Shown: positions 6,203 through 33,021 of the stretch, piece after piece
Numbering within the stretch: position 1 is the first letter of the stretch
How the letters are laid out: every line of letters starts with the position of its first letter
NCBI RefSeq assembly: GCF_000722765.2
Contig: NZ_CP028415.1
Coordinates: 812,501-876,500 of the forward strand
DNA: 64,000 nucleotides
Reading direction: 5' to 3'
Source: Streptococcus mitis
GTDB lineage: Bacteria; Bacillota; Bacilli; Lactobacillales; Streptococcaceae
Notes under the pieces: generated by a model
The model's database searches: none
The model's input: only the letters and a program-made list of their open reading frames with translations
Told to the model about the DNA's origin: nothing
Program-made: the position numbers and the translations under genes

Positions 6203-7963
6203 ATGGTTGACAAACAAGTCATTGAAGAAATCAAAAACAATGCCAACATTGTGGAAGTCATAGGAGATGTGATTTCTTTACAAAAGGCAGGACGGAACTA
6301 TCTAGGGCTCTGTCCTTTTCATGGTGAAAAAACACCTTCTTTCAACGTTGTAGAGGACAAGCAGTTTTACCACTGTTTTGGTTGTGGCCGCTCGGGTGAT
6401 GTCTTTAAATTCATCGAGGAGTACCAAGGGGTTCCCTTTATGGAGGCTGTCCAAATCTTAGGTCAGCGTGTGGGGATTGAGGTTGAAAAACCGCTTTATA
6501 GTGAACAGAAGCCAGCTTCACCCCACCAAGCTCTTTATGATATGCACGAAGATGCTGCCAAATTTTATCATGCTATTCTCATGACAACGACCATGGGGGA
6601 AGAGGCCAGAAATTACCTCTATCAGCGAGGTTTGACAGATGAAGTGCTCAAGCATTTTCGGATTGGTTTGGCACCTCCAGAACGAAACTATCTGTATCAA
6701 CGTTTGTCTGGTCAATATCGTGAAGAGGATTTTTTGGATTCGGGACTGTTTTATCTCTCGGATGCTAATCAATTTTTAGATACCTTTCACAATCGGATTA
6801 TGTTTCCCCTGACAAATGACCAAGGAAAGGTCATTGCCTTCTCAGGTCGTATCTGGCAGAAAACGGATTCACAAACTTCTAAGTATAAAAATAGCCGATC
6901 GACTGCAATTTTTAACAAAAGTTACGAATTATATCATATGGATAGGGCAAAAAAATCTTCTGGTAAATCCAGTGAGATTTACCTGATGGAAGGGTTCATG
7001 GATGTCATTGCAGCCTATCGGGCTGGAATCGAAAACGCTGTGGCGTCCATGGGAACAGCCTTAAGTCGTGAGCATGTTGAGCATCTGAAAAGGCTAACCA
7101 AGAAGTTGGTTCTTGTTTACGATGGCGATAAGGCTGGGCAAGCTGCGACATTGAAAGCACTGGACGAAATTGGTGATATGCCTGTGCAAATCGTTAGCAT
7201 GCCTGATAACTTGGATCCAGATGAGTATCTACAAAAAAATGGACCAGAAGACTTGGCCTATCTATTAACGAAAACTCGTATTAGTCCGATTGAGTTCTAC
7301 ATTCACCAGTATAAGCCTGAAAATAGTGAAAATCTGCAGGCTCAGATTGAGTTTATTGAAAAAATAGCTCCCCTGATTGTTAAAGAAAAGTCTATCACTG
7401 CTCAAAACACCTATATTCATATTTTAGCTGATAGTCTGGCGTCTTTTGATTATGCCCAGATTGAGCAGATTGTTAATGAGAGTCGTCAGGTACAAAGACA
7501 GAATCGCATGGAAGGAATTTCCAGACCGACGCCAATCACCATGACTGTCACCAAGCAGTTATCGGCTATTATGAGGGCAGAAGCTCATCTACTTTATCGA
7601 ATGATGGAATCCCCTCTTGTTTTAAACGATTACCGTTTGCGGGAAGACTTTGCATTTGCCACACCTGAATTTCAGGTTTTATACGACTTGCTTGGCCAAT
7701 ATGGTAGCCTTCCTCCAGAAGTTTTAGCAGAACAGACAGAGGAGGTTGAAAGAGCTTGGTATCAAGTCTTAGCTCAGGATTTGCCTGCTGAGATGTCACC
7801 GCAGGAACTTAGTGAAGTAGAAACGACTCGAAACAAGGCTCTCTTGAATCAGGACAATATGAGAATCAAAAAGAAGGTGCAGGAAGCTAGCCATGTAGGA
7901 GATACAGACACAGCCCTAGAAGAATTGGAACGTTTAATTTCACAAAAGAGAAGAATGGAGTAA
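6203..7963 (+). CDS. dnaG: DNA primase DnaG
   Basis: This 586-aa primase makes RNA primers at the replication fork. The start at 6203 is preferred to an in-frame ATG at 6188 because the GGAGG at 6190-6194 sits eight bases upstream and would otherwise lie inside the coding region. The N-terminal zinc finger is complete (C37, H40, C58, C61). It is followed by the RNA polymerase-like core with a TOPRIM domain ([13 protein letters not shown], and DGDKAG near residue 310), and a C-terminal helicase-binding region. rpoD follows two bases after the stop, the common dnaG-rpoD operon. No rpsU precedes it. Confidence 0.96.
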
Positions 7964-14832: not shown

Positions 14833-17115
14833 TTATACCTTTTGACAAGGTAGGATAAGAGTAGACTGTTCAAGATCAACAGTCAGGTGGTAAGCGGTAT
14901 TGTCACGGATTGTGATTTCAAAGTCAGTAGTATAGAGGACTAAACGAAGAGTATCTCCTTCTTTTAACTTGTAAATAGTTGGTTGCAGTTCAAATTGCAC
15001 ATCCATCCATTCATCTGCAGTAATATCCTCTACGAACAGTAAATCATTTCTATTTTGCAAATTGAAATAGCCTTTTGTCACGACGCGTTGTGCATTTTCA
15101 CGAAAAGGCAATTCACAGAGATTTTCCAACATGTAGTAGCGACCGTTGTCAATGGTTCTAGAACTTAAAATAGCTGGATAAGGTTGTAGGTATTTCCTCT
15201 GTCCAAATTCTAGCAGTTGGGCAGATAAGAGCCCCTTATTTGTACTGGATTTGATACGTAGATTGAGCTGAGCATGACCGTTCAAGTGAAGGTCTTTGGT
15301 TACAGGAAGGTCAATAGTAATCTGATTGGCTTTCCCTTGATAGAGTTCTGTATTGAAGGTCTGGTAGGTCTTACCATAACGCTCAAAATCCTTATCTGAG
15401 TACTGGTTTTGAATAACTTTCTCTTCTTGACCAAGTGAGAAGGATTCAAAGTTATCTTGCTCACCGAAGGTATCAAGTGATAGCCAAGTCTGAGGAGCTG
15501 TATTGTCCTGCCAAATGACAGTAGGAAGTTGAAAATCTGTCTCTTCTCCCAGTAATTTCTTAGTCAATAAGGCGTTCATGGACTCACGGAAGTCAATGGA
15601 CTGCCAGTTGTTCATGTAAACATGTGCGCCATTATGGAAAAAGAGGTGCTTGTGTATATGAGCAGGAAGAGCATGGAACATCTGGTAAACATGAAGTGGT
15701 TTGACATTCCAATCCTGTGAACCATGGGTAAAGACAACCTCTGCCTTTACTTTATCAGCATTGAGCAGATAGTTGCGGTCATGCCAAAATTGATTGTAGT
15801 CACCAGATTTGCGATCTAACTGTTCTTTTACTTTTTCTAAGTCAGCTTGGTGAGCCTCATTACCACGGATATAGTCACCAGCCAAGAGATTACGAGAGTA
15901 GGTTAGTTCAGCAAGAGAGTCAAAGTCCTCCCCTGGATACCCACCTGGGCTAGTCACCAGACCGTTTTCACGATAGTAATTGTACCATGAAGAAATGCCT
16001 GCCTCGGCAATAATGACTTCTAACCCATCTACACCTGTAGTCGCTAGACCATTGGACATGGTACCTAGATAGGAAAGTCCCGTTGTGGCTACTTTTCCGT
16101 TTGACCAGTCAGCCTTGACTTGACGCTGGCGCGTGTGGTCAGTAAAGGCACGGCAGCGACCATTGAGCCAGTCGATGACATTTTTATAAGCCTCAATTTG
16201 CTGGTAGTCTCCATTAGTCATGAAACCTGTGGAGTCTTTGGTACCAACACCTGAGACATAGAGATTAGCAAACCCTCGTGGAAGGAAGTAGTCGTTGAGT
16301 GTATAGCTAGCGTTGATGTGCGTTAGCTTTTCTTCAGCTTTTGACACTAGCTCAGCTTGACCTTGAGGTTGGACAAGATTTAGTTGAGGCTCCTCTAGCT
16401 CAATCTTGTGAGCAGATTTAACCTCAAGCTCACCTTCCATCTTGTAGAGAGCCTTATCACTGGCTTTGTCATTGGTTCCTTGATGATAGGGACTTACAGT
16501 CATGATAGCAGGAATTTGCCCGTCATAACGAGGACGAATAATGCTGACCTTGACTAAGTCTGGTAGCCCTTTTTGGTCAGTATCGACACGAGATTCAACG
16601 TAAACGACTTCACGAATGACATCATGGCTAGAAAAAGTAGCCAAACTCTTGCCGTTAAAGTAGTGGTAGTCATTATCCTCAGGAATAAGACCATCACTAA
16701 CAAGTTGGTCGATAAGAGTATTTCCCTTTTTGGTGCGAGTATTGAGTAACTGATAGAGATTTTCAATCAAGTCACCATATACAATGGGAAAAGCAGTCTC
16801 TTTACGAAAAGCATCACTGTCTTCAAAGTCAACCAAGTAAGAAAAACCTAAGAGTTGAAAGGCTACAGTATAGAAAATATCTGCAGTCAGTTCTTTGTCT
16901 GACTGAAAAAATGTCAGTAAGTCAGTTTCTTTATCAACTGCTAAACTAGATAGGGGATAGGTGCTATCTTTGTAATTAAAAAAGAAACGAATAAGAAACT
17001 CCTCGAGCATTTTTTTATTTGTAATGTTGACTGGTAAATCAAACCCGTACTTTTTTAATTCAAAGATAATTGTATCTATAGGTAGCGCTAAATAGCTGAA
17101 TTGATTAAAACGCAT
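14833..17115 (-). CDS. pepX: X-prolyl dipeptidyl aminopeptidase PepX
   Basis: This 760-aa serine peptidase releases X-Pro dipeptides from peptides and supports use of proline-rich peptides such as casein fragments. The catalytic serine is in GLSYLG at residue 348, the same number as in the Lactococcus enzyme. The acid and base are in [10 protein letters not shown] and [11 protein letters not shown] further on. The C-terminal jelly-roll domain (about 560-760) is intact. It is cytoplasmic, with no signal peptide. GGAGG lies eight bases before the ATG, and an extended -10 (TGATATAAT) is 30 bases upstream. A degraded copy of its 3' end lies immediately downstream. Confidence 0.96.
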
Positions 17116-17284: not shown

Positions 17285-17314
17285 TTGACTAAATCGGGGG
17301 GGGGGTGGTATAAT
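17285..17314 (+). promoter_or_regulatory. Promoter of the giant surface protein, with poly-G spacer
   Basis: TTGACT (17285-17290, five of six consensus bases) and a perfect TATAAT (17309-17314) are separated by 18 bases. The spacer contains ten consecutive G residues (17296-17305). Slippage in the tract would change the spacer: nine G gives the optimal 17 bases, while eight or eleven gives 16 or 19. The start codon is 55 bases downstream. Spacer-length phase variation is established for poly-G/C promoters in Neisseria; applying it here is inference. Confidence 0.85.
17296..17305 (+). repeat. Homopolymeric G tract (10 G)
   Basis: Ten uninterrupted G residues in an otherwise A/T-rich intergenic region. 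Such a run is very unlikely by chance in low-GC streptococcal DNA. It sits exactly between the -35 and -10 boxes of the surface-protein promoter, where length changes by replication slippage would alter transcription. Confidence 0.95.
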
Positions 17315-17369: not shown

Positions 17370-20300
17370 ATGTATAAATCAAAAAGACGGAAAAATAAAT
17401 CTTTTGATTGGTATGGTTTGAGCCAACGTTTCTCTATTCGTAAGTATCATTTTGGTGCTGCGAGTGTGCTGTTGGGGACAGCCTTGATTTTGGGTGCTGC
17501 CCAAACGACTGCCAAGGCAGAAGAAACAGTTACTGAAAATAAAACAGAAGCTGTTGCATCTGCTCCAAAAGATGATAAGGCAAGTGAGAATGTCACAAAT
17601 GTGACGACACCAGCTCTTTCTGCTACGACAGAAGCTGCTGTAGTAGAAAAGCCAACCTTGAGTGATGAGGAAGTTGCAAAATTAGCTGCTGAAGCATCTA
17701 AGAAAGATGATAAAGCATCTGAAACAGCTACAACTGAAAAAACAGAAGCAGCTGACAAAGAAAAAGCAACACTAACTGCTCCTTTAACTGACAAAAAAGC
17801 TGATAAAGCAGTTGATGAAAAAGCTGATAAAAAGGACGAAAAGAAAGCAGAAAACCCAATTACTGCTACTAAAACTGTCCTTGAGCAATTGACATCTGAA
17901 GCAGAAGTATTGAACACAACTGCCTCAAACTTTGCGGATAAAAAGGCAGAAGATAAAGCTGGAAAAGAAGCAATCGCAACCGCAGTAGCTTCAGCTAAAG
18001 TTCAAATCGAAGCTTCTAAGAAAGCTCTTGCTGCTGGAGAAATCACTAAGCAAGAATTGGATGCCCAACTCCAACGTATCTCATCTGCCATCGAAGCAGT
18101 CTATGATGAGATGAAACGTGCAGGACACTTAGGTAAAGTTGAAGCAGTGTTGGCAGGTGAAACTACTACCAATACAGCAATCGTAGCTCCTACAACTAAG
18201 ACCCCAGTAAAAAATATTAATAAATTAACGGATGAAGAGATAGCAGCGGTTAAACGTGAAATCATGAATGCTAACCCAAGTATTACAGACCCTTCTATGA
18301 TTGAAGTAGTACAAGATGGGAATGGAACTGCAGGTGGAGCAACTGTTACAATAAATGGTGTTAAAACTAATATTCCTTCTGGAGATACTGTTGTTGGTAC
18401 TGCGGGTACAAAAAACTTAGAGCAACTTAAAAATAATATTAACTGGTTCGACTTTGCAGCAGCATCTATTACCTACTCTAATGGTACTGTAGTAGGGCCT
18501 GCAAGAAAATTAGCGCAACCAATTACTAAAACCATCACATATCCAAATGGTGATAGAGTTGAAGGTAAAATCACAATGGTTCGTGATGTTACCTATGCTG
18601 ATGGTTCAAAAGGATTAACTACTGATGATAAATTCTTGAATTCAGGAACTGCAAAATATGTCGAACATTTATACTACACGGGTGGAGCTCAAAATGACCA
18701 TGAACTTTATGAAGCCCTGCAAGAAGGTATGAAGTTTAATGTTAAAACGAAAGTTGAAGGATATGCTTTAACAGCAACTGTTATTAAACTAGGTTCCAAA
18801 GCAGTAGACTCTGATCCAAATAAAACACCAGCAGGACCAGTGAATGCTGTACGTGATTATGGTGATTGGGGTTCTGATAAACAATTAGCAAAAGCACAGG
18901 CTGAAGACAAAAGATTCAAAGCAAATGCTACTAAGAACAAAACAACGTTGGCTAATAATCCAACAGTTTCAGTAAATGGTGTAGCATTAACACTGCCAGA
19001 ATATCCAACAGAAACATTTGCTAATACAGATGCCTATTATTCAAAAGCAGCTGCTTATAATGGAGCAGTTAAAGCTTATAATCAAGCTATTGATGCTCAA
19101 CAATTATCTGCAACGAAATTGTCAGAAACTGGGTTCACTTATGTTAATGTGAATGGTAAGGCTGTACCAAACGGATCAGCTAATCTTTATAAAAAAATTG
19201 GTAACGAAAGAAAAGCGGATGTACTTATAACAGCTCAAGACACTCAATGGTCATACTTAAGGAAAGCAGGATTACCGACAATAAATCCAGACGGAAGTGA
19301 AATGCTTACTGCATTCACGTCATCTCGTGATGAATCAAACGTTGGGGTAACATTTGCACTTTCTGCAACATACAATGGTCGTATTGTAGATGTTAACGTA
19401 ATTGCTGCCGATGCTGAAGAAGCTGGACGTACTGAAATTGTTCAATTCGAGACAGATGGAACGAAATGGGAACAATTCATGGCATTAAATCTTCAAAAAG
19501 ATATTGATGAAAAAACTGCTCAAGGAGTTTACCCAAGTAGACAAAGTGATGTTAATGCGGATGGACGTCTTGCAGAAGCAGGATATAATCCGAAAGATTG
19601 GGTTAACGTAGATGAAAATGGGAATCCTTCTGCGTATGGAACTAATACATTCGGAGCTAACTACACATCTATGGGTTCTAAAAACTCATTACCAATAGCG
19701 CTTTCTCAAAACGTTAAGACATTATCAATGTATCTAAACTCTGCAGGTGCGCAAGCTGGTACAATTGGTTTCATGATTTATGACGGTGGAGATGCTCCGC
19801 AATCCTATGGGTCAGCTCAACATATCATCGGTGACTTTAATAAAGAAGTTGTTAAAGATGGTGTTAAAACACAAGTAACTGCGACTCAACCCTATCTGGG
19901 TAATGTTAAAGGGGATCCAGATTTCCGTTCAACAAAAACAGACCCTTCAGGTGGCTGGGTACTAGATGACTTAATCACATCAGAAAAATATAAAGAAACA
20001 CCATTAGAGTCAGGTAAAACTGTTGTAACAACAGACAAAGGTGTAACAGGTAAATATTTACTATTACCGAACGGTAATGCTGTGATTGAGAAATCAGATA
20101 ACACACGTGTGTTATTAAACCAAGGTGATGTTATCGAGATGGTAAATCCGTCAACTAAACTGCCGATTCGTGGTATTTATAACCATACAACTGGTGCATT
20201 AGGTGAAGGCACACTTGGAGATGAAGGAGAAAGTCAATTACTCGATCCGGCTGTGGCAACTGAGTATAAACTCCGCCAAGCTCAAGGAAATGAATATGTT

Positions 20301-23300
20301 CTTGACGGTGTACGAGCTAATCTTGGTGTCAATAATGACAAAGCCTATGTTCGTGGTTGGGTAGATTTCAATAATAACGGTAAGTTTGATCTTAATGAAT
20401 CTTCTGAAATTGTTGAAGTTAACCAAAATGGAACGTACAGCATTAAATTTAAAAACACACCACAATTACTAGATACTTCAGCAGATAGTCTAGGTGTACG
20501 TTTACGTATTTCACTAACTAAAGATGAAATTTTAGAACCAACTGGTGTAGCATCATCAGGGGAAGTAGAAGACTTTGAAACGCATGTTATCCATATGCCA
20601 CGTGGTACCAAACATGAAACAAAAGATTTCCAAGGTCGTGAGCAAACTGTTAAGTTACCAACCAATGCAATGTTCACAGCTAGTGGTAAAAACAAAGATT
20701 CTAACTATAAACAATGGGCTCAAATTGAAAATGATAACTTGCCACCGAAAATTGTTTTAACAGATAAACAAGTGGCGTCAGAAGAAGCTTACACACCAAC
20801 AGATAGCGAATTACCATCAAACTATCGTAAAGGTGATGACGGCAAAGTTTTCGTTGAACGTAATGGTGCAACAGTATTCACTGGAGAGTATGTAACCGTT
20901 AAGGATAAGAACAATAAAGTTCTCGGTAAAGGTCTAAAAATTACAAATCCATTGAATAACAAAACAGAATACTTATTAGATACATACACTGAATACGATA
21001 CTGCAGGAAATGAAGTAGGTACCTATAAAGTTAACCCAGCAAGTAACGGTAAGAATGTTTCTATTGGTAACGGTTTATACGAAACTACATTAACTTTCAA
21101 ACCAGTAGATGCATATGTAGGTACAGCAAAAGGTATCGCAGTACGTGCATGGGATGATAACAATAGTTCAACTGGTTGGGAAGCGACTAATGATACTATT
21201 GAAACTTCTAAGACATCTACTACACTAGCAGAAAAAGATAAAGTATTAGAAAATACAAATAATGGAAATAATGGCTATAAATCTATGGATACAAGCTATA
21301 TTCCAACTGTTATTGACGTTCGTCCTGTTGGTGAAGATACAATTACAGAAGATGTACAAGGAAAACCGCAATCATCAAATCCAACAATTCCAGCTTATGC
21401 AACTGTTGAAACAGTAACAAATGATAAGATTGAAGATACTAAGTATGCTGCGAATTTTGTTATTTTAGATAAAACTAAAAAGCCAACATTAGCTACACAA
21501 AAAGAAAATCCTGGAAAATTATATACAGAAGATACAAAAGTTGATAAAGAAACAACACTTACATTAACAGACGGTACTACTGCAACTTATAAACCAGTTG
21601 ATAAGATTCCAGCAAATACTGTAATAGCTAAAGATGGAAATGTGGAAGTAACAGGAACTGGAAATGTAGTTCTAAATAATGTTCGTCTAGTAACAGGAAG
21701 CCAAATTCCTGCAGGATCTAAACCTCAAAGTAATCATCCTACTACAGTAGAAGTTCAAGTTACTTTAGCTGATGGAACTGAGCAAACAATTCCAGCAGGA
21801 GGAACAATTCCAGGTGGAGCTACAATTAAGACCCCATTTACTAATACAGCTACAAATACATTTAATAATGTCACATACAATAATGGACAAACTATTCCAG
21901 CAGCATCAGCTGGTAAGATTTCTTCATTAGCAAAAGAAACGTCAGCAGATCAATTAGTAGAAAAAGGGAAATCTATTACATTAGATGGCACTACTTATTC
22001 TAATAACGATGTGATTCCAAAAGGAACTCGAACAATGACAACTTATGAAGATTTACGAAATGTAACTCTTCCAAATGCAGTTCATATCGATCCTCAAACA
22101 GGAGAAGTGACAAGTGTTCCACGTCGTTATACTAAAGTAACTGAAACAGAAATCGTCATTGAAAACGAAGGTACCTACACATTAAATCAAGATACTGGTG
22201 AAATTACATTCATACCAGATCCTAAATTCGTAGGAACAGGTACAGGTGTAACAAAACAACAACCGGATGTCGACTATAACGATAAAGTAGCTGGGGACCC
22301 AGTAACAAGTAAATATGGTACTGACTACGGTAAAGCCAAGTATATTCCAATCGTTAAGCCACAATCAAAAGCATCAATTACTCGTACAATTCATTATGTA
22401 TACGAAAATGCTAATGACAATCCAACAAGTCAAGATTCTTATAAAGATAACGATCCAATCTTAGCAATCGATAACACACCAGTTACTCGTACACAAACGA
22501 TTGATTATACTCGTGATTATAAGATCTTCTCTGAAGCAGGAACTACTGACACTGCAATTACAACTACCAACCAAGTAACAGATGCATCTGGTAATATTTA
22601 TAATGTTGGAGATACTATTCCAGCGGGGACACAGTTCAACCAAGGTTCAATTATCATCGGTAAATGGACAGCTTCAAGTGATCAAAACTCTAAATTTAAA
22701 GAAATTATTTCACCAACAGTGAAAGGATATACTGCTGAAGTAGTAACAGCTGACTTCACTCCTCGTGCTGATGGTAAAATGGGACACATCCACAATGGTA
22801 AACAACCTGTAGGATTATATACTCCAGTAGCTGATAATAATAAAGATGTTGGGGCATATGAACCATTAGTATCAGAAGTGCGTTCAGACGATAAAGATGA
22901 TTTCGATATGTATGTTGTTTACAAAGCTGATATTCAAAAAGCTAAAGTAACATACATCGACTTAGATGCAACAGGTGATGCTCGTATTCTTGAAGTTCAA
23001 AACGCTAATCCAGCTCCAGCAACAGGTGCTGATGCGAAAACAACTTACGGTGTTGCAACACTTCAAGGTAAATCTCATACAGCTATTCCTTACTTAACAG
23101 CTGAAACAATCAAGAAGTATGAAGATCGAGGTTATGAACTAGTAACAGACGACTATACAAATAATACTCAAGGTACAGCTATTGAGGGTGGACGTAAGTT
23201 TGATGATGATAAAGAAGTTGACCAAGCATTCAATGTTTACCTACGTCATAAAAAAGTTACTCGTAAAATTAAAGACACTCAAGAAGTAACACGTACAATC

Positions 23301-26300
23301 GAGTACAAATATGCAAGTACAGACGATGTACCAGCAGATAAACGTGGAACAACGGCTGCACCAACAGTAACTGAGACACTTCACTTTGAACGTGACCGTA
23401 CAATTGACTACACGTTAGCAGCTAAAGAATATCCAACAGAATACGCTGCTTATAAAGCTGTGTTAGATGCTAGTGGATATGATTCGCCAGAAGAATACAA
23501 AGCTCGTGTAGTTTACTATGACCACATTACAAATAAAGCAATAGCAGCAGATGCAACAGATGCTCAAAAAGCAATCGTTACATTTGGACCATGGACTCCA
23601 GTAGGTGGAACATCTAACGATGCAATTACATTATCTGATGCAGAAAAAGCTAAAGATGATAAATTCAACCTTGTTAATTCTCCAGAAGTAACTGGTTATG
23701 TTCCAGATAACGCTACTGTAGAAGCAACTGCAGCAATCGATGCAGAAGCAGACGACTACAAGATTACAGTACTTTACACTCCAGTTGCTCAAAAAGCTGT
23801 GGTTAAATTCGTAGAAGTAGATCCAACTAATACAGATAAAGTCATTACTCCAGGTCTTGCAGATCCAATCGCAGTAACAGGTAAATCAGAAGCAGCTTAC
23901 CCAGCTACAACAGCAACTTCAGTAACAGATAAAATTGCTGAGCTAGTTAAGAAAGGTTATGAACTTGTTGATAACGGATTTGTATCAGCAGACAAGTTCG
24001 ATAAAGATGCTGCAGTTGATCAAGAATATGTTGTGAAATTCAAAGCTAAAGTAGTTGATGTTCCATCATTTGATCCAACAAAACCAGCAAGTAACGATAA
24101 TCCAAAACCAACTCCAGGTGTAACGCCAATCGATCCAAATAATCCAGATGGACCAAAATGGACTGAAGCATTAATCAACGCTGTAAAAGTACAAGAAGAA
24201 GTAACACGTACAATTAAGTATGTATACGAAGATGGTACTCCAGTAGCAGAATCTGATTTAACAAGTGTGGCTGATAAGAAAGTTAAAACACTTAAATTCA
24301 CTCGTTCTGGTAAGATTAATGTAGCAACAGGAGAAATCACATACGGAGATTGGTCAGCTGATCAAACATTCGAAGCAGTAACTTCTCCTACACTTGAGAA
24401 ATACACTGCGGCAGTTGCAGGTATAACACCAGCAGTTGCAGACGTACCAGCGAAAACTGTAGCGGCTACAGATAAAGACTTTGAAGAGACAGTAATCTAC
24501 TCTACAAAACCAACAACGGTAGACCCTAACAAACCAACAGATCCAACAAATCCAAATGTTACTCCACAACCTGATGATGTAGTACCTAACGATCCAAAAG
24601 GACGTACTTACAGAGAATTAGGATTAATCGAAGAAGTAACACACACAGTTCACTATAAACTTGAAGATGGATCTGATGCAGGTATTGCTGATAATGTACA
24701 AACATTAACATTTACACGTACTGCAGAAGTAGATCCAGTAACTGGAGCAATTTCTAACTTTGGTACATGGAAAGCTAAAGGTGGAGATACAACAATCGAT
24801 GCTGTAACGACACCAAACAAAGACGGATATGTGGCTTCGGCGAAAACATCTACAGAACGTACAAATGTAGCAGCTACGGATAAAGATAGTGAAGAAACAA
24901 TCATCTACCGTAAACTTGGTTCATATGTACCAGTAGTACCAGAAGGCATCACACCTCCAGCGGATGCTGACCTAAATCCAAAACCATATCCAAATGCAAC
25001 TCCAGCAGATCCTACAAAACCAGGAACACCTACTGAAACTCCAGTAGTTCCATACATTCCTGGAACAACACCGGTAGGACCAAATGGAAAACCATTAACA
25101 CCGAAAGATCCTAACGATCCAACGAAAGGATATGAAGTACCAGACCTACCAACAGATCCAACAGAAAACACTACAATTACCTATGTTAAAGATGGATCAC
25201 AAGTAGCTGTTACACACTTCATCGAAGTAAACAGTGAAACTGATAAGACTGAAAAAGGTGCGGTAGCAGAATCAGTAGTAGATACTGGTGATACAGGCAA
25301 AGCATTCACTAAGGCTGCTGATGTAACAGCAACAATTGAAGCACTTAAAGCTAAAGGATATACAGTTGTTGAAAATAACTACCCAACAGATGGTACATTC
25401 GATGCAGACTCTAAGACTAACCAAGTATACAAAGTTTTAGTAACTGCTAAGCCAATTACTGTAAATCCAAACGACCCGACTCCAACTAAAGGTCAACCAA
25501 TCGATCCAAATAATCCAACAGGACCAAAATGGACTCCAGAGTTGATCAAAGAGTTAGAAGACGGACGTACAGAAGAAGTGAAACGTACAATCAAGTATGT
25601 TTACGCAGATGGTTCAAAAGCTGCTGATTCAGTTCAAGAAACTAAAGAGTTCAAACGTTCAGCAACAATCAATCCAGTAACAGGTAAGGTTACATTTGGG
25701 GACTGGTCACCAGCTCAAACATTTGAAGCTGTAACTTCACCAAAAGTTACAAACTTCACTCCAGACAAAGAATCTGTACCAGCGGCAGAAGTAACAGCAA
25801 CTGCTGAGGATATTAATGAAACAGTCATCTATACTACAAAACCAGCAAATATCGATCCATCTAAACCAACAGATCCAAATACACCGAACGTTACTCCAAG
25901 ACCTGATGACAGAGTACCAAATGATCCAAAAGGACGTACTTACAAAGAATTAGGATTAATCGAAGAAGTAACACACACAGTTCACTACAAACTAGCTGAC
26001 GGATCAGATGCAGGTATCCCTGATAATGTACAAACATTAACATTCACTCGTACAGCTGACCTAGATCCAGTAACAGGAGCAATTTCTAACTTTGGTACAT
26101 GGACAGCTAAAGATAACGATACAACAATCGATGCTATAACAACTCCAAACAAACCTGGATATGTAGCTTCAGCAGCTAAATCAACAGAACGTACAAATGT
26201 ACAAGCTACTGATAAAGATAGTGAAGAAACAATTATCTACCGTAAGCTCGGTTCATATGTACCGGTGATTCCAGAAGGCGTAACACCTCCAACAGGAACT

Positions 26301-29300
26301 GACTTAACACCAAAACCATATGAAAATCCAATAAATGAAGATCCTACAAGACCAGGAACACCTACTGAAACTCCAGTAGTACCATATATCCCTGGAACAA
26401 CACCAGTAGGACCAAACGGTAAACCATTAACTCCGAAAGATCCTAACGATCCAACGAAAGGATATGAAGTACCGAAGGTACCAGAAGATCCAACTCAAAA
26501 CACTACAATTACGTATGTGAAAGATGGTTCTCAAGTAGCTCTAGTTCACTTCATTAAAGCTGATGGAACTGCAGTTCACGTATCAGTTGCGGAAGCAGGA
26601 GACACAGGTAAAGCAATCAAGACAACAAACATTGATAACGTTAAAGCTGAATTAGAAGCAAAAGGTTATGAAGTTGTTGCACCAACTGATGCGGCTTATA
26701 CAGCAGAACGTGTAGCATTCTATGCAGAAGCTAACCGTACATTTGATGACAAGGATGACAAAGGTAATGATGGAATTAGTCAAGTTTACTATGTAATCGT
26801 TAAAGAGGGAATCACTCCAATCGATCCAGATAAACCGCTAGATCCAAATACACCAGACGTAACTCCAAAACCAGGAGATAAAGTACCAGGCGATCCAAAA
26901 CAACGTACATTTGAACAACTAGGATTACTAGATGAAGTAAATCGTACAATCAACTACAGATATGCAAATACTGATAAAGTAGATGCTGATAAACGTGGTC
27001 AAGAAGCTCGTCCAACTGTAGAACAAAAACTTCGTTACTCTCGTAAAGGTAACCTAAACAAAGTAACAGGTGAAATCACTTATACTTCTGATTGGACAAA
27101 ACCTCAAATATTAGCGGAAGTAACTTCACCAGTCATCGAAGGATATGTTGCGGACATTAAAGCAGCTGAAAAAGTAGAGAATGTTGCTCATGATGCAGCT
27201 GACTCTGTTGTAAACGTTGTTTACACACCACTAGGAAAATATGTACCAAAAGTACCAGAAGGATTCGAAGTTCCAAAAGTTGAGAAACCTCAATATCCAA
27301 ACGATCCAACAGATCCAACGAAACCAGGAACACCAACAACAGTGATTCCTCACGTTCCAGGAACAACTCCAAAAGATCCAAATGGAAACCCACTGAAACC
27401 AGTAGATCCAAATGATCCAAGTAAAGGATATGTTCCACCAACACCTGAAAACCCAACAGAAGATACACAAATCACTTATGAGAAAGATACTCAAAAAGCG
27501 AAAGTAACTTATGTGGTAGAAGGAACAGGAACAGTACTTCACACAGATAACCTAGAAGGCAAATCTGGAGAACCAATTGAGTACTCAACAGTAACAAAAC
27601 TTGCTGAATTGAAAGCTCTAGGATATGACTTAGTAACTGATGGATTCACAACAGCTACAGATAAGAACTACGATAAAGATACAAAAGTAGATCAAAGCTT
27701 CGTTGTAACAGTGAAACCACATGTTGAGCCAATCAAACCAGTAGATCCAGAAAATCCAAATGATCCAAACAAACCAAACCCAGGTGATCCAATCGATCCT
27801 AACAATCCTGATGGACCAAAATGGACAGAAGATTTAATTAAGAAGATTGATACAACTCGCCACGTGAACCGTACAATTACATACGTTAACGAAAAAGGTG
27901 AGGAAGTAGCTAAGAAAGTAACAGATAAAGTAACATTCACTCGTGAAGGTAAGATTAATACTGTAACAGGTGAAATCACTTACGGTGACTGGACAGCTAA
28001 AGATGGAGATACAACATTCGATAAAGTTGAATCACCAGTAGTTAAAGGCTACATCCTGAAAGATGCCAAACAAAAAGAAGTAGCAGCTACAACAGGATTA
28101 ACTGCTGACTCTAAAGATGAAAATATCAAAGTAGTTTACGTACCAGTAGGAAAAGTTACAATTACAGTACCACCAGGTGTAACACCACCAACTCCGGTAA
28201 CAGATACACCATACGAAAATGTACCAGGTGAACCGGGTAAAGTTGTACCACCAAGTCCAACTAAACCACAAGATCCACAAGATCCAAATAGTCCGAAAGT
28301 ACCAGTGATTCCACATATCCCAGGAACAACACCAGTGGTACCAAAAGATCCAACTAAACCAATTAGTCCGGATAACCCACTAGTTCCATTAACACCAGTT
28401 GATCCAAACGATCCAACTAAAGGATATGAAGTACCACCAGTACCAACAGATCCAAGTACAGATACACCAATCACTTACGTAACTGATAAGCAAAAAGCTA
28501 TCACAAACTTTGTAGATGAAAAAGGTAAAGTTGTATCAACTCCAGTAGTTGATGAAGGTGATTCAGGAGCTAACTTCACTAAGTCTAAAGTTGATGAAGT
28601 AACTAAGACTATTGAAAAACTTGAAAAAGCTGGATACAGAGTCGTTAAGAATGAGTTCCCATCTAAAGATACAGACAGAGTATTTGATAAAGATAAATCT
28701 GTAGATCAAATCTTCACTGTGACAGTAGCTGAAAGAATTATTCCAGTTACACCAGGTAAGCCAGTAGATCCAAACGATCCAAACTTACCGAAGAACCCAG
28801 ATGGAACACCTGTAACACCATCTACACCAGAGCCAGGTAAACCAGTATTCCCTGGAGATCCAAACAGTCCAGTATGGCCAAATACTGTGAAAGATCTTGT
28901 AACTGAGAAATCAGCTACACGTACGATCAAGTATGTAGATCGCAACGGAAAAGAAGTTTCTGAAACTCGTACAGAAACTATTAAGTTTACTCGTGAAGCA
29001 AAAGTAAACATAGTGACTGGTGAAATCACTTATGGTGAATGGACAACAGATCGTAACGATGATATCTTCAACGGTTACCAAGTACCAGTTGTGAAAGGAT
29101 ACATCGCTAAAGCTGGTGATCTAGAATCATCAACTAAAGATGTACAAGTAACTCCTGATACAATCAAGGATATCAATGAAACAGTGATTTACGATAAGTT
29201 AGGTTCATGGATCCCAAATATCCCAGGAACACCAACAAATCCAATCACATATCCAAACGATCCTAAAGATCCAACTAAACCAGGAACAGATAAACCTAAA

Positions 29301-29786
29301 GTACCTTATGTACCAGGATTTATCCCTGTAGATCCAGAAGGTCAACCATTGAAACCAGTTGATCCAAACGATCCAACGAAAGGATACGAAGTACCAGATG
29401 TACCTGGTGATCCAACGCAAGATACACCAATCAACTACATTCCTAAGGATCCTACACCAAATCCAACTCCATACCCAGGTCCAACTCCAGCTCCAACTCC
29501 TAAACCAGAGCCTAAGCCGGAACCAAAACCTGAGCCAAAACCAGAACCAGAAACTCCACAACCTGTAACACCTGCAGATGATGGAGATAACAACGGAAAT
29601 AATAATGGTACTCCATCAACTCCAGCTCAACCTGCAGCGCCTTCTACACCTCAATACATGGATGGTCAACGTGAACTTCCAAATACAGGTACAGAAGATC
29701 ATGCTAGCCTTGCAGCACTTGGACTTCTAGGAGCCCTAAGTGGATTTGGATTGATTGCTCGTAAGAAAAGAGAAGATGAAGAATAA
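17370..29786 (+). CDS. Giant 4138-aa YSIRK/LPXTG surface protein with CshA-like and mucin-binding-type repeats
   Basis: A sortase-anchored adhesin. The ATG at 17370 is chosen over an in-frame GTG at 17361. Residues 1-50 are a YSIRK-type signal peptide (FSIRKYHFGAASVLLG). Residues 50-270 are a charged Lys/Glu/Ala-rich region, partly helical. Residues 270-950 resemble the CshA non-repetitive region. About 955-1075 is a GEVED-type domain with the acidic loop DFNNNGKFD and GEVEDFETHV. About 1075-1640 contains CshA-repeat features (YTLNQDTGEITFIPDPKFVG). From about 1669 to 3948 come nine B2-like modules (VTRTIKYVY...GEITYGDW) and six MucBP-like modules (QKAKVTY...), joined by Pro/Asp/Asn-rich linkers. 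About 4029-4066 is a KPEPKPEP wall-spanning segment. LPNTG is at 4103-4107, then a hydrophobic helix and a charged tail. Ligand is unknown; mucin or host glycoprotein binding is inferred from the family. Confidence 0.95.
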   Translation: MYKSKRRKNKSFDWYGLSQRFSIRKYHFGAASVLLGTALILGAAQTTAKAEETVTENKTEAVASAPKDDKASENVTNVTTPALSATTEAAVVEKPTLSDEEVAKLAAEASKKDDKASETATTEKTEAADKEKATLTAPLTDKKADKAVDEKADKKDEKKAENPITATKTVLEQLTSEAEVLNTTASNFADKKAEDKAGKEAIATAVASAKVQIEASKKALAAGEITKQELDAQLQRISSAIEAVYDEMKRAGHLGKVEAVLAGETTTNTAIVAPTTKTPVKNINKLTDEEIAAVKREIMNANPSITDPSMIEVVQDGNGTAGGATVTINGVKTNIPSGDTVVGTAGTKNLEQLKNNINWFDFAAASITYSNGTVVGPARKLAQPITKTITYPNGDRVEGKITMVRDVTYADGSKGLTTDDKFLNSGTAKYVEHLYYTGGAQNDHELYEALQEGMKFNVKTKVEGYALTATVIKLGSKAVDSDPNKTPAGPVNAVRDYGDWGSDKQLAKAQAEDKRFKANATKNKTTLANNPTVSVNGVALTLPEYPTETFANTDAYYSKAAAYNGAVKAYNQAIDAQQLSATKLSETGFTYVNVNGKAVPNGSANLYKKIGNERKADVLITAQDTQWSYLRKAGLPTINPDGSEMLTAFTSSRDESNVGVTFALSATYNGRIVDVNVIAADAEEAGRTEIVQFETDGTKWEQFMALNLQKDIDEKTAQGVYPSRQSDVNADGRLAEAGYNPKDWVNVDENGNPSAYGTNTFGANYTSMGSKNSLPIALSQNVKTLSMYLNSAGAQAGTIGFMIYDGGDAPQSYGSAQHIIGDFNKEVVKDGVKTQVTATQPYLGNVKGDPDFRSTKTDPSGGWVLDDLITSEKYKETPLESGKTVVTTDKGVTGKYLLLPNGNAVIEKSDNTRVLLNQGDVIEMVNPSTKLPIRGIYNHTTGALGEGTLGDEGESQLLDPAVATEYKLRQAQGNEYVLDGVRANLGVNNDKAYVRGWVDFNNNGKFDLNESSEIVEVNQNGTYSIKFKNTPQLLDTSADSLGVRLRISLTKDEILEPTGVASSGEVEDFETHVIHMPRGTKHETKDFQGREQTVKLPTNAMFTASGKNKDSNYKQWAQIENDNLPPKIVLTDKQVASEEAYTPTDSELPSNYRKGDDGKVFVERNGATVFTGEYVTVKDKNNKVLGKGLKITNPLNNKTEYLLDTYTEYDTAGNEVGTYKVNPASNGKNVSIGNGLYETTLTFKPVDAYVGTAKGIAVRAWDDNNSSTGWEATNDTIETSKTSTTLAEKDKVLENTNNGNNGYKSMDTSYIPTVIDVRPVGEDTITEDVQGKPQSSNPTIPAYATVETVTNDKIEDTKYAANFVILDKTKKPTLATQKENPGKLYTEDTKVDKETTLTLTDGTTATYKPVDKIPANTVIAKDGNVEVTGTGNVVLNNVRLVTGSQIPAGSKPQSNHPTTVEVQVTLADGTEQTIPAGGTIPGGATIKTPFTNTATNTFNNVTYNNGQTIPAASAGKISSLAKETSADQLVEKGKSITLDGTTYSNNDVIPKGTRTMTTYEDLRNVTLPNAVHIDPQTGEVTSVPRRYTKVTETEIVIENEGTYTLNQDTGEITFIPDPKFVGTGTGVTKQQPDVDYNDKVAGDPVTSKYGTDYGKAKYIPIVKPQSKASITRTIHYVYENANDNPTSQDSYKDNDPILAIDNTPVTRTQTIDYTRDYKIFSEAGTTDTAITTTNQVTDASGNIYNVGDTIPAGTQFNQGSIIIGKWTASSDQNSKFKEIISPTVKGYTAEVVTADFTPRADGKMGHIHNGKQPVGLYTPVADNNKDVGAYEPLVSEVRSDDKDDFDMYVVYKADIQKAKVTYIDLDATGDARILEVQNANPAPATGADAKTTYGVATLQGKSHTAIPYLTAETIKKYEDRGYELVTDDYTNNTQGTAIEGGRKFDDDKEVDQAFNVYLRHKKVTRKIKDTQEVTRTIEYKYASTDDVPADKRGTTAAPTVTETLHFERDRTIDYTLAAKEYPTEYAAYKAVLDASGYDSPEEYKARVVYYDHITNKAIAADATDAQKAIVTFGPWTPVGGTSNDAITLSDAEKAKDDKFNLVNSPEVTGYVPDNATVEATAAIDAEADDYKITVLYTPVAQKAVVKFVEVDPTNTDKVITPGLADPIAVTGKSEAAYPATTATSVTDKIAELVKKGYELVDNGFVSADKFDKDAAVDQEYVVKFKAKVVDVPSFDPTKPASNDNPKPTPGVTPIDPNNPDGPKWTEALINAVKVQEEVTRTIKYVYEDGTPVAESDLTSVADKKVKTLKFTRSGKINVATGEITYGDWSADQTFEAVTSPTLEKYTAAVAGITPAVADVPAKTVAATDKDFEETVIYSTKPTTVDPNKPTDPTNPNVTPQPDDVVPNDPKGRTYRELGLIEEVTHTVHYKLEDGSDAGIADNVQTLTFTRTAEVDPVTGAISNFGTWKAKGGDTTIDAVTTPNKDGYVASAKTSTERTNVAATDKDSEETIIYRKLGSYVPVVPEGITPPADADLNPKPYPNATPADPTKPGTPTETPVVPYIPGTTPVGPNGKPLTPKDPNDPTKGYEVPDLPTDPTENTTITYVKDGSQVAVTHFIEVNSETDKTEKGAVAESVVDTGDTGKAFTKAADVTATIEALKAKGYTVVENNYPTDGTFDADSKTNQVYKVLVTAKPITVNPNDPTPTKGQPIDPNNPTGPKWTPELIKELEDGRTEEVKRTIKYVYADGSKAADSVQETKEFKRSATINPVTGKVTFGDWSPAQTFEAVTSPKVTNFTPDKESVPAAEVTATAEDINETVIYTTKPANIDPSKPTDPNTPNVTPRPDDRVPNDPKGRTYKELGLIEEVTHTVHYKLADGSDAGIPDNVQTLTFTRTADLDPVTGAISNFGTWTAKDNDTTIDAITTPNKPGYVASAAKSTERTNVQATDKDSEETIIYRKLGSYVPVIPEGVTPPTGTDLTPKPYENPINEDPTRPGTPTETPVVPYIPGTTPVGPNGKPLTPKDPNDPTKGYEVPKVPEDPTQNTTITYVKDGSQVALVHFIKADGTAVHVSVAEAGDTGKAIKTTNIDNVKAELEAKGYEVVAPTDAAYTAERVAFYAEANRTFDDKDDKGNDGISQVYYVIVKEGITPIDPDKPLDPNTPDVTPKPGDKVPGDPKQRTFEQLGLLDEVNRTINYRYANTDKVDADKRGQEARPTVEQKLRYSRKGNLNKVTGEITYTSDWTKPQILAEVTSPVIEGYVADIKAAEKVENVAHDAADSVVNVVYTPLGKYVPKVPEGFEVPKVEKPQYPNDPTDPTKPGTPTTVIPHVPGTTPKDPNGNPLKPVDPNDPSKGYVPPTPENPTEDTQITYEKDTQKAKVTYVVEGTGTVLHTDNLEGKSGEPIEYSTVTKLAELKALGYDLVTDGFTTATDKNYDKDTKVDQSFVVTVKPHVEPIKPVDPENPNDPNKPNPGDPIDPNNPDGPKWTEDLIKKIDTTRHVNRTITYVNEKGEEVAKKVTDKVTFTREGKINTVTGEITYGDWTAKDGDTTFDKVESPVVKGYILKDAKQKEVAATTGLTADSKDENIKVVYVPVGKVTITVPPGVTPPTPVTDTPYENVPGEPGKVVPPSPTKPQDPQDPNSPKVPVIPHIPGTTPVVPKDPTKPISPDNPLVPLTPVDPNDPTKGYEVPPVPTDPSTDTPITYVTDKQKAITNFVDEKGKVVSTPVVDEGDSGANFTKSKVDEVTKTIEKLEKAGYRVVKNEFPSKDTDRVFDKDKSVDQIFTVTVAERIIPVTPGKPVDPNDPNLPKNPDGTPVTPSTPEPGKPVFPGDPNSPVWPNTVKDLVTEKSATRTIKYVDRNGKEVSETRTETIKFTREAKVNIVTGEITYGEWTTDRNDDIFNGYQVPVVKGYIAKAGDLESSTKDVQVTPDTIKDINETVIYDKLGSWIPNIPGTPTNPITYPNDPKDPTKPGTDKPKVPYVPGFIPVDPEGQPLKPVDPNDPTKGYEVPDVPGDPTQDTPINYIPKDPTPNPTPYPGPTPAPTPKPEPKPEPKPEPKPEPETPQPVTPADDGDNNGNNNGTPSTPAQPAAPSTPQYMDGQRELPNTGTEDHASLAALGLLGALSGFGLIARKKREDEE
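24530..26557 (+). repeat. Internal large duplication in the surface-protein gene (period 1332 bp)
   Basis: DNA at 24530-25225 is closely repeated at 25862-26557. Landmarks are offset by exactly 1332 bases: GACGTACTTACAGAGAATTA at 24601 versus GACGTACTTACAAAGAATTA at 25933, and the GGAAAACCATTAAC region at 25086 versus its match at 26418. The offset equals 444 codons and the reading frame is kept. Each copy carries a Pro-rich linker, one VTHTVHYKL-type B module, a second linker and the start of an A module. The preceding B modules match with a different offset (about 1353-1371), suggesting older duplication with later indels. Confidence 0.85.
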
Positions 29787-29889: not shown

Positions 29890-29919
29890 ATAGTGAGAAC
29901 GATAGAGGAGAAGTGTAAA

Positions 29920-32900
29920 TTGATCGCACAACTAGATACAAAGACAGTCTATAGTTTTATGGAGAGCGTCATTTCGATAGACAAGTATGTTAGAGTAGCA
30001 AAAGACTATGGCTACACTCATCTGGCTATGATGGATATTGACAATCTTTATGGGGCTTTCGACTTTCTAGAGGTTACAAAAAAATACGGCATTCATCCTT
30101 TGTTAGGGCTTGAAATGACTGTTTTAGTGGATGATCAGGAAGTGAATCTACGCTTTTTAGCTCTATCTAGTGTGGGCTATCAGCAGTTGATGAAGCTTTC
30201 AACAGCCAAGATGCAGGGGGAGAAAAGTTGGTCAGTTCTATCTCAGTATCTAGAGGATATTGCGGTAATCGTGCCTTATTTTGAAGAACTTGAGTTGTTA
30301 AATCTAGGTTGTGATTACTATATAGGGGTTTACCCAGAAACATTGGCCAGTGAATTTCACCATCCTATTTTGCCATTGTATCGGGTTAATACATTTGAAA
30401 GTAAGGATAGAGAAGTTCTTCAAGTATTAGCAGCGATTAAAGAAAATCTACCGCTCAGAGAAGTTCCCTTGCGTTCGAGACAAGATGTTTTTATATCAGC
30501 AAGTTCTTTAGAGAAACTATTCCAAGAACGTTTTCCTCAAGCCTTGGAAAACTTAGAAAAGCTTATTTCAGGTATTTCTTATGACTTGGATACTAGTCTG
30601 AAACTGCCTCGTTTTAATCCAGCAAGGCTAGCCGTAGAAGAATTGAGAGAGCGTGCTGAATTGGGGCTTGTTCAGAAGGGGTTAACTGGTAAAGAATATC
30701 AAGACCGTCTAGACCAAGAATTGGCTGTTATTCATGATATGGGCTTTGATGATTATTTCTTGGTTGTTTGGGATTTATTGCGTTTTGGACGTTCGAATGG
30801 CTATTATATGGGAATGGGCCGAGGTTCTGCAGTTGGTAGCTTGGTTTCCTATGCTTTAGACATTACAGGGATTGATCCAGTAGAGAAAAATCTGATTTTT
30901 GAACGCTTCCTCAATCGTGAACGCTATACCATGCCTGATATTGATATTGATATCCCAGATATTTATCGTCCAGATTTTATCAGATATGTTGGTAATAAAT
31001 ATGGTAGTAAACATGCGGCTCAAATCGTTACTTTTTCTACCTTTGGGGCTAAGCAAGCTCTTAGAGATGTTTTGAAACGTTTTGGTGTGCCAGAGTATGA
31101 ATTATCTGCAATTACCAAGAAAATCAGTTTTCGTGATAATCTCAAGTCGGCCTATGAGGGTAACCTCCAGTTTCGTCAGCAAATCAATAGTAAGTTAGAA
31201 TACCAAAAAGCCTTTGAAATTGCCTGCAAGATTGAGGGATATCCAAGACAAACCTCTGTCCATGCAGCTGGTGTTGTAATCAGTGACCAAGATTTGACTA
31301 ATTATATCCCTCTAAAGAATGGTGATGAAATTCCACTGACTCAATATGATGCTCATGGAGTCGAAGCAAGTGGACTTTTGAAAATGGATTTTCTGGGGCT
31401 ACGAAATTTGACCTTTGTTCAGAAAATGCAAGAGTTGCTTGCTGAAACAGAAGGTATTCACTTGAAAATTGAAGAAATAGATTTAGAAGACAACGCCACC
31501 CTAGCTTTATTTGCCTCTGGAAATACAAAAGGTATCTTTCAATTTGAACAACCTGGTGCCATTCGCTTGCTCAAACGTGTGCAACCAGTCTGTTTTGAGG
31601 ATGTCGTAGCAACTACTTCTCTAAATCGACCAGGTGCTAGTGATTATATCAATAATTTTGTGGCAAGAAAGCATGGGCAGGAAGAAGTGACTGTTCTAGA
31701 TCCAGCTCTGGAGGATATTTTGGCTCCAACTTATGGCATTATGCTCTATCAGGAGCAGGTTATGCAGGTTGCTCAGCGCTTTGCTGGATTTAGTCTTGGG
31801 AAGGCCGATATTTTGCGTCGGGCTATGGGGAAAAAGGATGCCTCTGCTATGCATGAGATGAGGGCTTCCTTTATTCAGGGAGCATTAAAAGTAGGTCATA
31901 CTGCGGAAAAGGCAGAGCAGGTCTTTGATGTTATGGAGAAGTTTGCAGGTTATGGATTTAATAGATCTCACGCCTATGCTTACTCAGCCTTGGCCTTCCA
32001 GTTGGCTTATTTTAAAACACATTATCCAGCCATCTTTTATCAGATTATGTTGAATTCTGCCAACAGTGATTATGTAACAGATGCCTTAGAAGCAGGTTTT
32101 GAAGTAGCCCCATTGTCCATCAATACTATTCCCTATCACGATAAAATTGCCAACAAGTCTATCTATCTAGGTTTGAAATCAATTAAGGGGCTCAGCAAGG
32201 ATTTGGCGCTTTGGATTATTGAACATAGACCTTATTCTAATATTGAAGATTTTTTAGCTAAACTACCTGAGAATTATTTGAAACTTCCCTTGCTGGAACC
32301 TTTGGTAAAAGTTGGTCTTTTCGATTCATTTGAAAAAAATCGTCAAAAAGTATTCAATAATTTAGCTAATCTATTTGAATTTGTGAAAGTGTTAGGAAGC
32401 TTATTTGGAGAGACAATTTATAGTTGGCAAGATTCGGAGGACTGGACGGAGCAAGAAAAATTCTACATGGAACAAGAGCTTCTAGGAGTAGGCGTTAGTA
32501 AACATCCTCTACAAGCTATTGCAAGTAAGGCTATTTATCCGATTACTCCTATTAGTAATTTGTCAGAAAATAGCTATGCTATTATCTTGATTGAAGTTCA
32601 GAAGATAAAAGTAATTCGTACCAAAAAGGGTGAAAATATGGCCTTCTTACAGGTAGATGACAGTAAGAAAAAATTGGATGTTACCCTCTTTTCAGATTTA
32701 TATCGACGAGTTGGTCAGGAAGTAAGAGAAGGAGACTTCTACTATATTAAAGGGAAAGTCCAGTCACGTGACGGTCGTCTGCAAATGATTGCACAAGAAA
32801 TAAGAGAAGCAGTGGCTGAGCGCTTTTGGATTCAGGTGAAGAATCATGATTTGGATCAAGAAATTTCACGTATTTTAGACCAGTATAAAGGCCCAATTCC

Positions 32901-33021
32901 AGTCATTATCAGGTATGAAGAGGAACAGAAAACTATTGTTTCTCCCCATCATTTTGTGACTAAATCTGATGAATTAGAAGCGAAATTGAATGGAATCGTT
33001 ATGAAAACGATTTATCGTTAA
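29920..33021 (+). CDS. dnaE: DNA polymerase III subunit alpha, DnaE
   Basis: This 1033-aa DnaE-type replicative polymerase extends RNA primers, mainly on the lagging strand in Firmicutes alongside PolC. The start is placed at the TTG at 29920: GAGGAG lies about ten bases upstream, the promoter -10 ends at 29889, and the N-terminus becomes the conserved MIAQLDTKTVYSFM. An in-frame GTG at 29893 lies too close to the promoter. Domains in order are PHP (about 1-200), the polymerase core with the metal-binding PDIDIDIPD (about 344-352), helix-hairpin-helix, and a C-terminal OB fold (about 870-950). pfkA follows 80 bases later with its own promoter. Confidence 0.95.
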   Translation: MIAQLDTKTVYSFMESVISIDKYVRVAKDYGYTHLAMMDIDNLYGAFDFLEVTKKYGIHPLLGLEMTVLVDDQEVNLRFLALSSVGYQQLMKLSTAKMQGEKSWSVLSQYLEDIAVIVPYFEELELLNLGCDYYIGVYPETLASEFHHPILPLYRVNTFESKDREVLQVLAAIKENLPLREVPLRSRQDVFISASSLEKLFQERFPQALENLEKLISGISYDLDTSLKLPRFNPARLAVEELRERAELGLVQKGLTGKEYQDRLDQELAVIHDMGFDDYFLVVWDLLRFGRSNGYYMGMGRGSAVGSLVSYALDITGIDPVEKNLIFERFLNRERYTMPDIDIDIPDIYRPDFIRYVGNKYGSKHAAQIVTFSTFGAKQALRDVLKRFGVPEYELSAITKKISFRDNLKSAYEGNLQFRQQINSKLEYQKAFEIACKIEGYPRQTSVHAAGVVISDQDLTNYIPLKNGDEIPLTQYDAHGVEASGLLKMDFLGLRNLTFVQKMQELLAETEGIHLKIEEIDLEDNATLALFASGNTKGIFQFEQPGAIRLLKRVQPVCFEDVVATTSLNRPGASDYINNFVARKHGQEEVTVLDPALEDILAPTYGIMLYQEQVMQVAQRFAGFSLGKADILRRAMGKKDASAMHEMRASFIQGALKVGHTAEKAEQVFDVMEKFAGYGFNRSHAYAYSALAFQLAYFKTHYPAIFYQIMLNSANSDYVTDALEAGFEVAPLSINTIPYHDKIANKSIYLGLKSIKGLSKDLALWIIEHRPYSNIEDFLAKLPENYLKLPLLEPLVKVGLFDSFEKNRQKVFNNLANLFEFVKVLGSLFGETIYSWQDSEDWTEQEKFYMEQELLGVGVSKHPLQAIASKAIYPITPISNLSENSYAIILIEVQKIKVIRTKKGENMAFLQVDDSKKKLDVTLFSDLYRRVGQEVREGDFYYIKGKVQSRDGRLQMIAQEIREAVAERFWIQVKNHDLDQEISRILDQYKGPIPVIIRYEEEQKTIVSPHHFVTKSDELEAKLNGIVMKTIYR

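Follow-up and report, generated by a model that had tools for sequence, protein, structure and literature searches.

The run of ten G residues between the -35 and -10 elements ahead of a giant surface-protein gene of Streptococcus mitis is, in all likelihood, a spacer prone to slippage within the main promoter of this mucin-binding adhesin, tuning the level of its transcript. Comparison across related loci supports such a slippage-tuned promoter, an interpretation that we consider well supported at the level of sequence. The promoter in the window, i.e., the whole stretch of 64,000 nucleotides that was analysed, appears to be one member of a recurrent streptococcal class in which the G run lies on the non-template strand, many members preceding genes for secreted or surface proteins. 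On balance, we favor the existence of an undescribed genus-wide set of contingency promoters, in which non-template G runs, apparently of independent placement, lie between -35 and -10 ahead of adhesins, pilins, secreted proteins and capsule operons, and would give a strain several stochastic surface rheostats; judging from the locked orientation and from the C that precedes the tract, the G run may aid promoter recognition beyond spacing.

On the forward strand, the -35 hexamer TTGACT (17285..17290; 5/6 consensus) and the -10 hexamer TATAAT (17309..17314; 6/6 consensus) flank a spacer of 18 nt (17291..17308), which consists of AAATC, the G10 tract predicted to be the slippage site (17296..17305) and TGG (17306..17308), an extended -10 element directly abutting the -10. 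An earlier note had described this arrangement, and its description is exact, coordinates included. The TATAAT is separated by 55 nt from the ATG of the adhesin and the end of the tract lies 64 nt before it, the tract thus being outside the coding sequence. For this reason, a contingency locus of the frameshift type, such as the C8 tract of mga, was ruled out. With 11 of 12 consensus matches and TG before the -10, the promoter is the top promoter-like site between positions 16500 and 18000, where six such sites occur and shuffled sequences contain 4.4 on average, so that the hexamers alone would not be special. The tract itself is the only run of six or more G or C residues in the 64,000 bases; under a first-order model, only 0.010 G runs of at least ten would be expected per 64 kb. 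As in porA/fetA-type promoters, a homopolymer of at least eight bases lies between -35 and -10.

The gene downstream (17370..29786, forward strand, with an ATG start), announced in the earlier note as a 12.4-kb surface-protein gene, measures 12,417 bp and encodes a YSIRK/LPXTG adhesin of 4138 aa, with matches to the YSIRK signal, aRib, GEVED, a CshA repeat, 8 Muc_B2, 5 MucBP_2 and Gram_pos_anchor (PF04650, PF17965, PF17966, and PF00746 all above cut-offs). A secretion signal, MucBP-type repeats and an LPXTG anchor are the features of a mucin-binding LPXTG adhesin, mucin binding being putative, and the product is presumably exposed on the surface, as are those of porA/fetA-type loci. Among the best 120 of 457 homologs, three named as mucin-binding proteins of Streptococcus mitis share 90-97% identity with residues 340-1300, the alignment of one covering 68% of these residues; other source names are S. 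gwangjuensis, S. vestibularis, and Gemella sp. The divergent upstream neighbor is pepX (14833..17115, reverse strand), encoding X-prolyl dipeptidyl aminopeptidase, which lies beside all five orthologs examined, and the downstream neighbor is dnaE (29893..33021, forward strand), encoding DNA polymerase III alpha, which is present in the three orthologs with the 3' side covered. A plasmid search returned two Streptococcus salivarius records, matching 15% of the query in its signal-peptide part. Elsewhere in the window, a pyruvate kinase is encoded for which chain 8ias, taken to be from S. pneumoniae, is a near-identical match.

A query made of the promoter and gene start matched 15 of 284 Streptococcus genomes. 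In five of them the gene adjoins pepX; in the remaining ten, the match is confined to the query from position 104 onwards, i.e., from the gene start. The nearest compared genome (G001, with 53% of sampled 31-letter words in common with the window) is 99.0% identical in the adhesin, 99.2% in PepX, and 97.7% in DnaE (the last over 782 residues); its promoter carries G9 in a spacer of 17 nt, within flanks 98-99% identical to those of the window. G314 has an 18-nt spacer with G10, and all 30 nt of its promoter are the same as in the window, inside diverged flanks (upstream mismatches: 27 in 131 aligned nt against G001, and 31 in 130 against the window). The G185 ortholog has an interrupted G-rich spacer of 18 nt with no run above six (TTGACT-TTTAC-GGGGGG-AGAGGAG-TATAAT), and those of G170 (TTGAAA-17-TATAAT, with TGG) and G032 (TTGAAC-17-TAAAAT) are tract-less. 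The hexamer TTGACT recurs unchanged in G001, G314, and G185, and the TGG in G001, G314, and G170. Hence, six alleles can be compared, window included, and three of them have a run of at least eight, so the gene does not need the switch; in the three without it, a spacer of 17-18 nt is kept, as counted on the sequences. The position of the promoter is conserved among the syntenic orthologs. Invariance of the tract across strains had been named beforehand as an observation that would speak against a switch; instead, we found G10 in the window, G9 in G001, G10 in G314 and three alleles without a run of eight, although the G9/G10 difference rests on one genome pair, in which a one-base assembly error is possible.

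In the class as a whole, tract lengths range from 8 to 18 G and differ between loci with very similar flanks, namely G10/G8 with no mismatch in 400 flanking nt (L039/L045), G14/G9 with two in 400 (L082/L087), G12/G16 with 10 in 400 (L050/L051), and G8/G11 with 10 in 398 (L068/L091). A G16/G9 pair is also found among closely related loci, and one genome holds two nearby copies with G16 and G10. Length varies in 10 of 12 groups of related promoters (68 tracts), the groups being our own reading of the pair table, with downstream divergence of at most 13.4% in eleven and 16.4% in the twelfth; among the matches listed, 14 of the 18 frames seen more than once also vary. Thus, at the window locus and in the wider class, length differs between close alleles as in porA/fetA-type loci, in comparisons made mostly between species-level genomes and not clones.

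The genus-wide evidence begins with the pattern GGGGGGGGN{0,8}TATAAT, which was found in 45 of 284 Streptococcus genomes (67 tracts by our own count of the listing) and in none of the 284 when reversed. With C8 before TATAAT, there was a match in one genome, against six (nine matches) in the reversed control, so that the runs before TATAAT are G and hardly ever C (45 vs. 1 of 284 genomes). The wider pattern TTGAN{2,14}G8N{0,6}TANNNT occurs in 69 of 284 genomes (reversed control, 7/284), with 215 genomes free of any such frame. The 150 matches listed for it, a lower bound, correspond to 130 tracts in 66 genomes and to 99 distinct frames; one multi-member frame is not promoter-like, and loci that share a frame are not necessarily homologous promoters. 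In some genomes, six or more frames of this kind are present. Immediately 5' of the G run, a C is found in 64 of the 89 promoter frames among the matches listed. A palindrome-like frame, TTGAACGTTC-G8-CGTACATT, recurs in G110, G181 (two copies), G258, and G032; it fits the pattern and is not promoter-like. At locus L067 (G054), a transporter-like gene is preceded by a double homopolymer, a long A run that passes directly into G18 and then TATAAT.

As a control for distance, G runs separated from TATAAT by N{9,17} were found in 14 of 284 genomes (17 tracts), against 11 (19 matches) in the reversed control. Eight of these 17 tracts are re-hits of the TATAAT pattern, eight belong to one YSIRK family and one is unrelated; with the re-hits counted in, poly-G at this distance is not above its control. 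In the YSIRK family (L316-L323, in G212, G227, G228, G174, G279, G310, G278, and G277), tracts of G9-G11 lie 9 nt before an extended -10, with no clear TTGA -35, and their lengths differ among genomes. Independently of TATAAT, all tracts of G8 or longer were collected in 15 genomes, 12 chosen for having sites and three without, in which tract density is unrepresentative; 23 of the 78 tracts adjoin TATAAT. Around the 78, frames matching at least 10 of 12 consensus positions number 26 on the G strand and one on the C strand (shuffled-flank controls, 1.9%). Around the 55 tracts not adjoining TATAAT, frames of at least nine number 16 and one, respectively, with 0.76 expected from shuffles; 32 of the 55 lie outside open stretches of 100 codons and account for 12 G-strand frames vs. 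0; some of the remaining tracts fall in coding sequence. Chance placement of the tract is thus rejected by the run statistics, the reversed controls, and the C-run and TATAAT-independent counts. The earlier note had held the G run to be in the exact position to work; across the genus, such runs lie in promoter spacers well in excess of controls, a large class that goes beyond what the note described.

A wider scan of genome contigs gave at least 119 stretches; the 80 listed (L098-L177) are mostly from uncultured Clostridia, Bacilli and others, with one Streptococcaceae bacterium and none from a named Streptococcus. Among these listed matches, frames resembling TTGAC-G9-TATAAT are also seen in uncultured Mollicutes, Streptobacillus, and Helicobacter. 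The promoter-frame scan of viral contigs gave four stretches, which were taken for chance since none has a G run of at least eight or an adhesin, PepX, or DnaE match; a second scan gave two stretches, with G11 and G8 in promoter-like frames.

Regarding the genes served, an automatic rule took the longest downstream open reading frame with its start no more than 300 nt away, so that a few assignments may be incorrect. Sixty of the 67 downstream proteins were scanned (omitting L056, L063, L068, L076, L090, and L091, with no or a short reading frame, and L095, with a very long one), and a YSIRK signal was found in 21 of them, besides KxYKxGKxW signals (4), SpaA (5) and pilin (2) folds, CAP (3), and LytR/CpsA (2). 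When related promoters were merged, a YSIRK-like motif was present in 9 of 47 groups, and 32 of 47 had a hydrophobic segment close to the N-terminus, which can be taken as a rough indicator of a signal peptide or membrane segment. Twenty of these genomes hold 255 YSIRK genes, about 13 each, and a streptococcal genome has about 2000 genes; YSIRK genes are therefore in large excess among the targets. Non-surface targets also occur, including PhoH, HPr kinase, an epimerase, an MFS transporter, and an ABC permease.

Spacers are 15-22 nt long in 60 of the 62 tracts with a TTG[AC]N -35, and 24 and 27 nt long in the other two. Tract length decreases as the remainder of the spacer lengthens (45 groups, r -0.35, p 0.009), and the variance of spacer length in these groups is 6.15, vs. 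9.37 when permuted. Among the matches listed, the same trend holds for the 89 frames with a -10 of at least 5/6 (r -0.33, p 0.002) and for all 99 frames (r -0.19, p 0.035). The number of promoters within the 16-19 nt band is not raised (25 vs. 25.3 by permutation), and the spacers with G18 tracts measure 22 and 27 nt, lengths that a spacing model would have to treat as off states. Altogether, spacer compensation moderately supports a role of spacing.

In the mechanism that we propose, replication slippage would add or remove single Gs, and the distance between -35 and -10 would thereby shift through about 16-20 nt, so that cells of the same clone would differ in how much adhesin transcript sigma-A RNA polymerase produces. 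The spacer optimum lies near 17 nt; the 18 nt of the window and the 17 nt of G001 would both be active states, and longer tracts would be weak or off. Because an extended -10 is present, control is expected to be graded rather than strictly on/off. The near absence of C runs indicates that more than length is at work; spacer length by itself does not account for the G-over-C bias. Sigma region 3 prefers G at -14, and G runs abutting the -10 would place a G at that position.

In an alternative reading, the tract would act through its own sequence or structure, as a G-rich element next to the -10, a protein site, or G-quadruplex or A-form DNA, with spacing being minor. The strong G-over-C bias (45 vs. 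1 of 284 genomes), the C that precedes the tract in 64 of the 89 frames among the matches listed, and a 16-19 nt band no fuller than by permutation would all fit; nevertheless, tract and remaining spacer compensate in length, the tract-less orthologs hold spacers of 17-18 nt, and the bias could stem simply from the preference for G at -14, so that we find this reading unlikely. That the tract is incidental, a chance hypermutable run with no regulatory role, would agree with the lack of a run of eight in three of six orthologous promoters, but is very unlikely in view of spacer placement and orientation far above controls, the over-representation of surface genes downstream and the conservation of the G314 promoter inside diverged flanks.

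It is highly improbable that the tract mainly serves the divergent pepX, or both genes, by setting the distance between regulator sites, as discussed for the poly-T tract of R28/Spy1337. The tract does lie between the two divergent genes, upstream of the pepX start by 180 nt; however, the hexamers on either side of it are oriented towards the adhesin, with the tract exactly in between, and pepX adjoins the adhesin also where the tract is absent. Homopolymer sequencing or assembly errors are likewise highly improbable as the source of the length differences: one-base differences such as G9/G10 are typical of them, but differences of 2-7 bases separate close loci (G10/G8, G14/G9, G12/G16, G16/G9), and nearby copies inside one genome have G16 and G10. 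A slippage-tuned promoter spacer remains our preferred reading.

Contingency loci based on simple repeats are textbook knowledge for Neisseria, Haemophilus, and Campylobacter; the porA tract is poly-G, and work from 2010 on repeats of S. agalactiae reportedly exists. The mechanism had been presented in the earlier note as established for Neisseria porA, opc and similar genes, and a homopolymer in the promoter spacer is indeed described for porA, fetA, and opc (PMC2791445); grouping opc with poly-G did not hold, its tract being given as poly-cytidine in a reference list, and the fetA tract comprises 8-14 C (PMC13293289). The window promoter resembles these Neisseria meningitidis loci in having a homopolymer in the promoter spacer of a surface-protein gene, and there length alleles change promoter use. 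Unlike Neisseria, which belongs to another phylum and has C tracts in opc and fetA and also G in porA, streptococci have almost only non-template G in their runs before TATAAT.

Within streptococci, the intergenic poly-T tract of R28/Spy1337 in S. pyogenes gives low transcript with 9T and higher transcript with 10T and 11T; as predicted for our case, single-base tract changes at an LPXTG protein gene alter the transcript, but the tract is poly-T between divergent genes and alters the spacing of two direct repeats, rather than being a run of Gs that separates -35 from -10 (PMC7098570). The bca gene of S. agalactiae (alpha C protein) similarly has an upstream homopolymer near a surface-protein gene, which, unlike ours, is a poly-T of 8-15 residues located 99 nt upstream (PMC7098570). 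Reversible slippage at a C/G homopolymer of eight in a streptococcus is documented by the mga C8 tract of S. pyogenes, which differs in lying in coding sequence and acting by frameshift and not by promoter spacing (PMC10330708). In the low-GC genome of Mycoplasma agalactiae, the spma surface-protein genes have poly-G tracts of up to 13 in their 5' regions, a likeness from another lineage, for which the authors call the effect on transcription unknown (PMC2824730). Methyltransferase and pilus switches have also been reported in streptococci.

Among the matches listed from the open-access literature, with subscription papers mostly outside its scope, no poly-G spacer promoter was found in Streptococcus. 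The accessible parts of PMC11868660, PMC4448216, and PMC5585690 hold none, and the word streptococc is absent from the main text of PMC2831843. Within the same scope, no well-described poly-G spacer was found for an adhesin of this kind in Mitis streptococci, in line with what the earlier note had supposed. The kind of mechanism is known, and its streptococcal lineage and scale appear undescribed in the searchable literature.

The repeat-based streptococcal cases that we met in print are a few single genes, and G-run promoters may be a common and little-noticed route to random surface variation in streptococci. If dozens of surface genes and some capsule loci are tuned in this way, clonal cultures would be mixtures in adhesin expression, strain comparisons of adherence or surface antigens would have to take tract lengths into account, and the expression state may be predictable from genome data by simply counting Gs. 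Moreover, the G-only orientation prompts the question, accessible to experiment, of how the spacer is read in sigma-A promoters.

Two capsule-type operons have a G9 or G10 tract in an 18-nt spacer, one at position 422 of the minus strand of L325 (G056) and the other at position 490 of the plus strand of L326 (G167). The operons start with CpsA and Cps4B (both above the NCBIfam cut-offs), a CpsC-like protein (below the cut-off) and a tyrosine autokinase, and both are candidates for phase-variable capsule expression. Runs of G were further noticed within reading frames. In the capsule operon of L326, a coding G10 at about position 6642 lies in a glycosyltransferase-like gene, with two overlapping frames, and a G10 was also seen in a glycosyltransferase-like frame at L253 (G274). 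A G9 occurs in an HsdS-like frame at L235 (G001), and the G9 of L231 (G167) and G10 of L243 (G042) lie near the start of an open stretch with the motif DPPYNTGKDF, which by eye resembles a type III DNA methyltransferase.
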